Part shown: positions 35,754 to 47,250 of the stretch, piece after piece
Layout of the letters: every line of letters starts with the position of its first letter
Position numbering within the stretch: the first letter of the stretch is position 1
Assembly (NCBI RefSeq): GCF_900009145.1
Contig: NZ_LN889796.1
Coordinates: 313,602 to 377,601 of the forward strand
Direction of reading: 5' to 3'
Source: Planktothrix tepida PCC 9214
GTDB taxonomy: Bacteria > Cyanobacteriota > Cyanobacteriia > Cyanobacteriales > Microcoleaceae
Length of the DNA: 64,000 bases
Notes under the pieces: generated by a model
The model's input: the letters and a program-made list of their open reading frames with translations, nothing else
What the model was told of the DNA's origin: nothing
Databases searched by the model: none
Program-made: the position numbers and the translations under genes

Positions 35754-35837
35754 CAGTTATCAGTTATCAGTTGTCAGTTGTCAGTTGTCAGTTATCAGTT
35801 GTCAGTTGTCAGTTATTAGTTGTCAGTTATTAGTTAT
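35754..35837. repeat. Heptameric tandem repeat, 12 units
   Basis: Twelve 7-bp units of CAGTT(A/G)T (two units start with T) run without interruption from one base after the phospholipase stop codon. Short tandem heptamers of this kind are well known in filamentous cyanobacteria. Confidence 0.9.
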
Positions 35838-43480: not shown

Positions 43481-43494
43481 AGGGTGTAAGGGAA

Positions 43495-43880
43495 TGGAGC
43501 ATATGGGAATCGAACCCATGTCCAGAACAAGTATTTACTCCTTGCTCATTCACAGACTTAGCCTTTCTGATCCTCAAGGCGGGAACCCTTCATTATCCCG
43601 AAGGGTGGGATGCACTGGTTAAATCTTAGCTAACTCTCAACCAGAGGAACGAAGTTAGAGCATCCGTTGGGGGTTGGTCTATTGTCCTTAACGGAGTCAA
43701 ACGATAGACGCTCGAACCTACAAGAGGTGTTTAGGCAGCAACAGCGGCTGATTTACGAGCAAAAGGAACGATATTGTTCGCAGTTACATTTTGTTTGAGC
43801 CTGGATTTACGAGAGGTGACTCACTCTCGGCCTGCATCACTTGGTAGCTTTCCTTACCCTGTCGAAACCAGTAATGCCCC
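43495..43880 (-). ncRNA. ssrA: tmRNA (trans-translation RNA)
   Basis: On the minus strand the 5' end GGGGCATTACTGGTTTCGACA and the 3' end GGTTCGATTCCCATATGCTCC-A form the tRNA-Ala-like half, here shown in two parts. The tag reading frame is at 43781-43731: GCG AAC AAT ... GCC TAA, giving ANNIVPFARKSAAVAA and stop, a typical cyanobacterial tag ending in the AA degron. It rescues stalled ribosomes. CCA is encoded in part (…CCA). The 78-aa plus frame at 43774-44010 is antisense noise. Confidence 0.95.
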
Positions 43881-44038
43881 TTGCACTATTACTATAGTAG
43901 ACAATATTTTGGCAATCGTCAAGTTTTGGTTAATGTCGTTTATCACATTATTTGTCGTTTTTCACAAATTAGTGTCGTTTTTCACACTTGATTGTCGTTC
44001 AACAGGCTGATTAACAAATTAATGTCGTTTAACTTAAT

Positions 44039-44996
44039 GGCTCTCCTATACTTAGGGTTATAAGTAAGGCTTATATAAAAAGACAGGCTAGTAGCTTTTG
44101 GCGCATCATCTCAAAATTTTTGAAGCCATAGCTTTGACGAAGAATTAATTTGATCCGGTTGTTTAATCCCTCCATAACTCCACTGGTTGTTCGATTAATA
44201 AAATAATGGCAAATATCGGGAAGATGGTGTTTAAGAGTTTGGGCGGTTTTTCCAAAAACAATAAGAGCCGAATTGAGCCATTTCTTTAATCTTCTCATTC
44301 CCATAAGAACCGTTGTACTGCTTTCATAAATATCTCGGAGTTCCTCTTTTAATTCATAAGCGATACTCAAACAGGGGGAGGCCTTTAACAACAGTTTCAG
44401 ATCCCTTCTCTCTTCGGGGGTTAAATCGACATAATTTTTCAGCAGTAAGCACCGATTTTTTAAGCCTTTTAGTTCTAATTTAAGTCGAAGTTGATTCAGA
44501 GAACTGTTGACTAACTTCATCACATGAAATCGGTCAATGACAATTAAAGCATTAGGAAAAACTTCCCGAATCACTTTTTTAAATCCTCCCCACATATCCA
44601 CAGAAACCTCTTTGACCTTGGCTCTCATTATAACGAATGGTGTAATTCCTCCTTTTCTCTACAAATTCTAAGGGTTCTGTTGGATATTTTTTACATCCAG
44701 CACAATAAAATTGGCGACGGGGTAGATGCAGATAAACTCCCTGCCCACAAATAGATAGATCTCGGATTAACATCGAGCGAGTTTGATGAATATGATCGGT
44801 ATAATTTTGACAATGTGGACAAGTAATTCCCTCGTTTAATAAGTCTAATTTAAGAACAATAAAACCTTCTTGTTCTTGACAAGTGAACACCGTAATATTC
44901 GGGAGGTTGAGCAAACGCTCTAGTTGAAAGTCCATATTCAGTCGGAGTGTAAAACGTAGCTTACGCTACATTTTACACTATTTATTGAGGAGAGCC
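44039..44996 (-). mobile_element. ISL3-family insertion sequence, internally deleted
   Basis: Ends GGCTCTCCTATA (44039) and, inverted, GGCTCTCCTCAA (ending at 44996) share nine exact bases in the style of ISL3 termini. Inside is a single broken transposase gene. No 8-bp target duplication is found. At 958 bp it is shorter than a usual ISL3 element because the gene has lost its middle. Confidence 0.65.
44071..44935 (-). pseudogene. ISL3 transposase with frameshifting internal deletion
   Basis: The N-terminal piece (44935-44579) starts MDFQLERLLNLPNITVF and has the zinc-binding CPHC and CAGC pairs. The C-terminal piece (44628-44071) starts at RAKVKEVSVDMWGGFKKV and has VIDRFHVMKLV and TTSGVMEGLNNRIKLI, where the second and third catalytic acids lie. 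The join follows YTIRYN directly with a shift of frame, and the ~80 residues that should carry the first catalytic Asp (DEIS-type motif) are missing. Not active. Confidence 0.8.
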
Positions 44997-45291
44997 ATCA
45001 GGAGAATCTATCTGAGCAGAACATAGGGCCAAGGCTAAAGTTGAATCAGAGAAGTTGACCCTTGCATCAAATTGATTACCTAATCAATATTATAGAAAAC
45101 GACATCTATTTTGTGGAAAGTAGAAAACTACTCAAAATTGGCATTTTTCTAAGAAACGACAACTAAATTGTTAAATTCTCAAAGAGCGACACATAATGTG
45201 TGAATCTGAAGCGAAGGGTCTTTTACTCAAAAAAATGCTATAATGCTTATCAATAAAGGGTTTTAGTCCTGTTTCTCAAAGCGACATTAAT

Positions 45292-45672
45292 GTGGTAAAT
45301 GCGACATTTAATTTGATAACCGACAAAACCGCAGACGTTTATTATTATCCTGATATTATGGTAACTTGTGACTCCCGCGACAGAAATAATGGTTATTTTA
45401 AACAATATCCGAGTTTAATTATTGAAGTATTATCTGCCTCAACTGAAGCCTTTAACCGAGGTGATAAATTTGCCGACTATCGACAGATTGAAACCTTACA
45501 AGAATATGTATTGATTAGCCAAAATAAAATTAATATTGAATGTTTTAGACGAAATTCAGACGGACGATGGGAATTGTTTACCTATAAACCCCAGGAAACT
45601 CTTCAATTAGAAAGTATTAATTTTAGTTGTTCTGTCTCAGAAATTTATGAAGATGTATTAGGATTGAATTAA
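45292..45672 (+). pseudogene. Uma2-family nuclease-like gene, 5' truncated
   Basis: From about 45326 the frame encodes the C-terminal two-thirds of a Uma2 (DUF820) protein: YYYPDIMVTCDSRD, PSLIIEVLSASTEAFNRGDKF, YRQIETLQEYVLIS. The conserved PD-(D/E)xK-like residues D and E are in this part. The N-terminal third is replaced by the right end of the Tn7-like element; the GTG start at 45292 lies in that end. The missing part is not found on the other side of the element. Confidence 0.7.
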
Positions 45673-45765
45673 ATGAGTATAATTACGCCCTAAATATTCC
45701 TAATTTTCCAAAGATTTAATTAAATTGTACTCATTTAACAAAAATTGTGATACCATTTTCAGCTA

Positions 45766-47250
<1,485 letters not shown>

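Follow-up and report, generated by a model that had tools for sequence, protein, structure and literature searches.

A gene-less pair of type V-K CAST-like ends upstream of ssrA in Planktothrix tepida, probably left by two insertions of one element family

The window considered here is a 64,000-nucleotide stretch of contig C40 in the 6.78-Mb draft genome of Planktothrix tepida PCC 9214 (G000), which comprises 191 contigs. It carries the tmRNA gene ssrA on the minus strand, placed at 43495..43880 by ARAGORN and at 43492-43880 by Rfam (RF00023, 118 bits). Upstream of the gene, at 43894..43922 on the same strand, a consensus scan picks out a promoter-like site, TTGACG-17-TACTAT; such sites number seven in the stretch against 4.8 +/- 2.3 in shuffled sequence, which is not above chance. 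About 12 bp upstream of this site, leaving it whole, begins a unit that spans 43934..45325. Its left end (LE) lies upstream of the 5' end of the tmRNA, rather than downstream of a tRNA gene, with 53 bp between it and ssrA, the distance given in an initial annotation that had been made from the sequence alone.

The unit is bounded by the inverted arrays of short sites that had first drawn attention to it. On the left, TGTCG occurs on the plus strand at 43934, 43953, 43973, 43993 and 44023; on the right, CGACA occurs at 45321, 45302, 45282, 45187, 45157 and 45100. The outer spacings, 19 then 20, are identical at the two ends, which also agree in 15 of their 19 outermost bases. A pattern of three sites, TGTCG-N13..16-TGTCG-N13..16-TGTCG, has two matches in the window, these being the two ends of the unit, and none across 100 windows drawn from a first-order Markov model. 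A cluster of six TGTC at 7- or 14-bp steps, found at 35772-35821, is a different short repeat.

Between the arrays, the LE (43934..44038, plus strand), recognized by its sites and by a sequence match to the LE of an element in G112, is followed by an insertion sequence (IS) of 958 bp (44039..44996, minus strand), by a short interior of about 90 bp of non-IS sequence (44997..45088), and by the right end (RE; 45089..45325, minus strand), which was delimited by alignment and site map against elements in G094 and G112. A palindrome at 45071-45088 resembles by eye the sequence that precedes tnsB in G094, and a consensus scan detects a promoter-like TATAAT inside the RE, directed inwards, where CASTs place tnsB. 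The insertion sequence, which the initial annotation had correctly set apart, is of the ISL3 type and shares PF01610 and PF14690 with that family; here, however, it is a passenger whose transposase is split over two overlapping frames (44071-44628 and 44579-44935, minus strand). Its lack of a target duplication was considered as proof of recombination inside the IS and then dropped, since other copies of the same IS show none either. Once the IS is subtracted, 434 bp remain. The flanks of the unit itself differ, being GTTAA on the left and AAACC on the right, and a 5-bp target duplication is absent.

Relationship of the ends to type V-K CASTs

A search with the window LE through 388 genomes of the order gave matches in 63, the window's own included, and the elements among these matches bear cas12k and/or tnsB-tnsC-tniQ. 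One LE match led to the reference element, in G047 (L041), whose proteins match the PADLOC V-K models for TniQ, TnsC and TnsB. Its effector scores best against a model that bears the name Cas12j (1e-260), with two Cas12k models next (2e-249 and 7e-218); the V-K matches of the neighbouring proteins are the reason for taking it as Cas12k.

At the other end, the window RE is 64% identical to that of G094 over 239 bp (E 2e-16) and to that of G112 over 236 bp (E 2e-13). The six sites fall at 0/19/39/134/164/221 in the window and at 0/19/38/133/163/220 in both relatives, so that the spacing agrees to within 1 bp. In G094 and G112 alike, tnsB, tnsC and tniQ adjoin the RE, with cas12k additionally present in G112; the stretch fetched from G094 holds tnsBC-tniQ only. 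The available text of PMC9938897 describes the same arrangement for V-K elements, tnsB-tnsC-tniQ coming first when counted from the RE. Over 99 bp, the window LE shares 75% identity with that of the cas12k-bearing element in G112, whose matching 5-bp flanks, CCTTA/CCTTA, indicate that the end boundaries have been read correctly. From this homology, and from site maps shared with elements that carry tnsBC-tniQ or cas12k, both ends of the unit are assigned to type V-K, in agreement with the initial annotation. Ends derived from a non-CRISPR transposon of the Tn7 or Tn5053 kind that merely resemble those of V-K elements are barely credible: the outermost TGTCG does depart from the TGTACA found at the outer end of several of the V-K elements fetched, but TGTCG outer ends and cas12k occur together in G112, G081, G097 and G060, and the full RE site map is shared with two elements carrying V-K-like tnsBC-tniQ.

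The unit therefore has the LE and RE site arrays, and the spacing, of the V-K elements examined, and its LE likewise faces a structured-RNA gene; a GTN stands at a distance that would fit, as it would by chance at 30% of positions. Unlike a type V-K CAST, it is without tnsB, tnsC, tniQ, cas12k and an anchor spacer, its flanks are exchanged, and it is anchored upstream of ssrA, as opposed to the 3' end of a tRNA gene. The absence of transposition and cas genes had been remarked upon at the outset. Within the unit only the ISL3 frames matched Pfam, and tblastn with nine CAST proteins at E 0.01 returned no match in the window or in the stretches of contigs C46, C47 and C56.

Cas12k was found in none of the ten genomes of the window's genus and in nine of the 59 genomes searched overall. 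Mu-transpos_C, the C-terminal family of TnsB, has no match in G000 and has matches in three of the ten genomes of the genus. Elements with the same kind of ends and with transposition genes are present in other genomes (G094, G112). With neither Cas12k nor TnsB found in G000, the unit is probably immobile now. The LE has one match in G000 and one elsewhere in the genus, in G008 (L033 7306-10128), where an LE 88% identical to that of the window stands beside tRNA-Ala(cgc) and a 30-residue TniQ tail lies about 2.7 kb inside from it. The G008 locus is a decayed V-K CAST, and so a V-K donor probably once existed in the genus.

Junctions on the two sides of the unit

The sister species G002 is 96-99% identical to the window, depending on the stretch, through the ssrA region as far as 43933, where it diverges. 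From 45326 onward it is again 95-96% identical, on a different contig from its ssrA site. Both breaks are base-exact and coincide with the boundaries of the unit. Comparison with an empty site thus confirmed the left boundary upstream of ssrA to the base, but it also revealed that the two flanks represent two loci. The right flank opens with the 3' part of a Uma2-family gene (45326..45672, plus strand), cut by the insertion that left the window RE. In G002 the Uma2 gene is whole and has hisIE upstream of it. As hisIE adjoins Uma2 also in G005, and Uma2 adjoins thiC in G003 and G009, the gene order of G002 at this locus is probably the old one. The window RE belongs to a second insertion, inside the Uma2 gene. 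Just downstream of the cut gene, a TPP riboswitch stands intact before thiC (45763-45862).

The sequence that borders the ssrA site on its right in G002 is present in G000 on another contig, C47, directly after a remnant of an RE and the hexamer GGTTAA. The remnant is 30 bp long, ends in CGACA and differs from the window RE by one base. GGTTAA also constitutes the last six bases before the window LE (43928..43933, plus strand), and its repetition after the C47 remnant (L056:4924-4929) completes a 6-bp target duplication for the insertion at ssrA, divided between C40 and C47 (5 bp in G112). This assigns the LE in the window and the RE now on C47 to one insertion at ssrA. On the far side of the C47 remnant are hisIE and an apparent piece of an IS630-type transposase, the latter named by eye. 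The joints at present are therefore ssrA-[LE..RE]-Uma2 3' part-thiC on C40 and hisIE-[RE remnant]-GGTTAA-methyltransferase on C47. The ssrA locus was retrieved from eight congeners, and of these only G002 has the methyltransferase beside it.

These junctions overturn the view of the initial annotation that a single element had inserted at ssrA, as the right boundary of the unit was left by the Uma2 insertion and the RE of the ssrA insertion is on C47. Instead, two insertions of one element family appear to have exchanged flanks. That the contig merely jumps, through an error of assembly, between two copies of a repeat is highly improbable: the breakpoint is indeed a repeat and the genome a draft of many contigs, but the C47 side has only 30 bp of RE, with one base different and other adjoining sequence. 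G001 and G009 have both loci on a single contig, with ssrA and thiC in the same orientation; in G003 the two are opposed. Starting from the arrangement of G001 and G009, an exchange would produce a deletion or a circle, not an inversion.

A third copy of the RE, without an LE, is found on C46 (L055 5012-5292). Besides the RE, it has part of the ISL3 element and the short interior that the window unit also contains (94% over 103 bp). To the right, its flank agrees with G002:C1 exactly as far as the end of the RE; to the left, its flank agrees with G002:C11 and breaks off at the ISL3 left end. The site is intergenic and lies beside what appears, by eye, to be a GNAT acetyltransferase gene. All three RE copies found in G000 are thus at joints whose sides are non-adjacent in G002, which is a lead and not an enrichment. 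No second intact unit with both LE and RE was found, the genome itself showing one LE and three RE copies. In G005, a 41-bp piece (L255 3120-3160, on G005:C191) matches the inner right end (45234-45274 of the window) at 93% identity, and the surrounding 500 bp showed no end-like sites. Plasmid searches with the window stretch gave matches to ISL3 and other weak matches, thiC among them.

Origin of the unit

Taken together, the unit is best read, at a probability of about 0.7, as an orphaned, gene-less pair of V-K CAST ends derived from two insertions of one element family. As the junctions show, a V-K-type element inserted 54 bp upstream of the 5' end of ssrA, just outside the promoter-like site and with its LE towards the gene, duplicating GGTTAA, and another copy inserted in the Uma2 gene elsewhere in the genome. 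The two copies then exchanged flanks, presumably either by homologous recombination between them or through one unresolved intramolecular replicative transposition, two routes that leave identical joints. The ISL3-type IS also entered the unit, presumably after this exchange. The inserted elements themselves were most likely non-autonomous miniatures, consisting of LE and RE with no genes between and moved in trans by a V-K CAST since gone from the lineage, although the odds for this part of the reading are about even.

MITEs and other non-autonomous derivatives are made up of ends without genes and depend on a transposase encoded elsewhere. Units of this kind with V-K ends are found in g62, a genus of another cyanobacterial family, where ten gene-less LE+RE units of about 340-426 bp occur in five of the eight genomes searched. 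Three are in G170 (371, 366 and 366 bp, one of them with a weak LE of 19 bits), four in G142 (372, 372, 342 and about 340 bp) and one each in G235, G158 and G110 (426, 341 and 341 bp, respectively), so that they span more than one size class. Their loci are L114 432-804 and 1228-1599 (G142), L290, L292-L294, L297, L302, L303 and L307; on L303, the RE of one unit is about 13 bp from tRNA-Gly. The LE part of the g62 miniatures aligns over 132 bp, at 86% identity, with the LE of a V-K CAST in G110, a member of g62 that carries cas12k and tniQ. Matching 5-bp flanks surround one of the ten units, that of G110, and the other nine are without them. A facing end pair within 800 bp was present at three of 29 LE loci of the order, all of them in g62, and a plasmid search with a g62 miniature gave one 41-bp LE-like match, to Nostoc sp. 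HK-01 plasmid6. Since these LE+RE units are multicopy, V-K miniatures, or ‘CAST MITEs’, are a real class.

The suggestion of the initial annotation that the unit is a CRISPR-transposon MITE is accordingly strengthened in one respect, in that V-K-type miniatures exist, and the unit without its IS is comparable to those of g62 in size. It falls short in another, there being no second intact LE+RE unit in the genome or genus of the window, so that the case for movement as a miniature rests on another genus. Like a MITE, the window unit has ends without genes; unlike the multicopy family of g62, it has an ISL3 insertion, chimeric flanks and no second intact copy found in its genus.

The alternative is nearly as likely and stands itself somewhat below even odds. 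In this case, two full V-K CASTs, or large remnants of them, one at ssrA and one in Uma2, would have lost their genes by deletion and IS insertion, and their leftovers would have become fused, perhaps by recombination between ISL3 copies, without a miniature ever having existed. Such a course would account for LE and RE flanks that derive from two loci, and for an IS that occupies precisely the gap between the two end portions. It would also fit the C46 copy of the RE, whose ISL3 left end adjoins a flank drawn from a further locus, and the locus in G008 shows a CAST beside tRNA-Ala decayed to an LE and a TniQ tail. Against it, Cas12k, TnsB, TnsC, TniQ and the MerR regulator are all unmatched in the stretches of the three copies, and miniatures of like size do exist in g62.

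ssrA as a target site

Type V-K elements are known for their association with tRNA genes. According to the available parts of PMC9938897, the LE is usually, though not universally, downstream of a tRNA gene, the elements carry a truncated repeat with a 17-nt anchor spacer, and a GTN PAM lies 46-82 nt from the LE, with one exception at 147; PMC11406308, as far as its text was available, likewise describes V-K att sites as mostly tRNA genes. Among the 29 best LE loci fetched from the order, that of the window excluded, 17 adjoin a tRNA gene and none a tmRNA gene, a count that covers the best LE matches and not the weaker ones among the 63 genomes. As a more direct survey, a pattern placing an end-like site pair 45-75 bp from TGTCGAAACC, a conserved motif at the 5' end of tmRNA, was run over the 388 genomes. 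It occurs in 17 of them, with four rows at ssrA (G000, G018, G023 and G160), and only G000 shows an array there; the motif is present in 24 of 29 fetched ssrA loci, and the pattern misses ssrA genes without it. Another scan of contigs from ssrA to LE gave at least 119 stretches, of which two were checked by ARAGORN (L126 and L163) and contained no tmRNA. The concern that TGTCG repeats might belong to every ssrA promoter of the group was not borne out: none of the nine other congeners matches the ssrA-to-array pattern, one of the nine being G004, which is 73% complete and has no ssrA match. The description of ssrA as an unusual anchor is thus supported.

In G007 and G006 (L006 and L009), AATTATTTATC and AATTATTTGTC upstream of ssrA weakly resemble the outer left end. 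This likeness may be chance or an old scar, and it was not counted because it consists in part of host sequence that G003 and G009 share.

How the element came to ssrA is a separate matter. A GTA at 43871..43873 (plus strand) is a candidate Cas12k PAM, with a spacer start at 43874 that is 60 bases before the LE. The candidate 17-nt protospacer, 43874..43890 (plus strand), would cover the 5' end of ssrA and promoter sequence, and is put forward from its position only. A crRNA running outward from the 5' end of ssrA might then have guided the insertion. For comparison, 34 left ends were searched for a repeat-flanked spacer matching the flank. Such a spacer with a clean GTN was found for 15, the spacer start being 43-64 bases from the LE, and in 11 of these 15 the distance is 58-64; two of the 15 (G058 and G112) share only 13 nt. 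In three of the remaining left ends the match is shifted by a base, and 16 are without a spacer match. Two CASTs whose LE has no tRNA gene found nearby are among those with matching flanks: in G110 (L082 / L111) the repeat-adjacent spacer matches over 23 nt with a GTT at 61, and in G112 (L110) over only 13 nt with a GTA at 60. These two are perhaps array-guided jumps.

At the window's own ssrA site, the predicted spacer was absent from 19 CAST or remnant loci within two mismatches, the best having three, and no anchor spacer was seen in the unit, its interior sharing no run of at least 11 nt, in either orientation, with the 250 bp before the LE. The position and orientation of the LE are weakly suggestive of RNA-guided insertion at ssrA, with which they are compatible.

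That the ssrA neighbourhood is a coincidence, V-K elements also inserting without a fitting guide and the genome having at least three such insertions, falls barely short of an even chance. Neither of the other two insertion sites, in the Uma2 gene and in the intergenic region on C46, is an RNA gene. At the Uma2 site the range 58-64 is without a GTN, one being present at 47, and the C46 site has two (59 and 62) within a GT-rich repeat. By chance, 30% of positions would have a GTN at 58-64, and four of the ten g62 miniatures have one, which is the chance level. The considerations on the other side are that the tRNA neighbours at 17 of the 29 best LE loci make RNA genes the usual address of the family, that the LE faces the RNA gene at ssrA as it does in the tRNA cases, and that the distance of 60 falls within the range of the 15 clean-GTN spacer matches. 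Six of the ten miniatures also have a GTN at 57-61, against 24% expected, in a range picked after the data had been seen.

No literature joining Cas12k with ‘miniature inverted’ or ‘tmRNA’ was found within a scope that left out preprints and most subscription papers. In the text available of PMC10293859 the terms ‘tmRNA’, ‘MITE’, ‘ssrA’ and ‘cointegrate’ are absent, and in that of PMC12452197 ssrA appears solely as a qPCR reference gene. The available text of PMC11406308 reports that V-K elements are without TnsA and a resolvase and that cointegrates form in E. coli, and leaves open whether V-K CASTs can cope with cointegrates in their native hosts.

A wider and rather less likely reading is that V-K CASTs regularly spawn gene-less miniatures which their machinery moves in trans, with ssrA as an example of a new RNA anchor sometimes reached, and which rearrange the native chromosome as they go. 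Miniature copies would be expected to leave the chromosome rearranged because the V-K machinery is without TnsA and a resolvase. If this is true, the GGTTAA split over two contigs would be the trace of a natural replicative event that was never resolved. Regardless, P. tepida provides a natural case of V-K ends lying between exchanged flanks, which bears on the question of native-host cointegrates raised in the part of PMC11406308 referred to above. Gene-less V-K units would, in addition, suggest that the machinery acts in trans on very small donors in nature, an activity that bears on the use of V-K systems as a tool.
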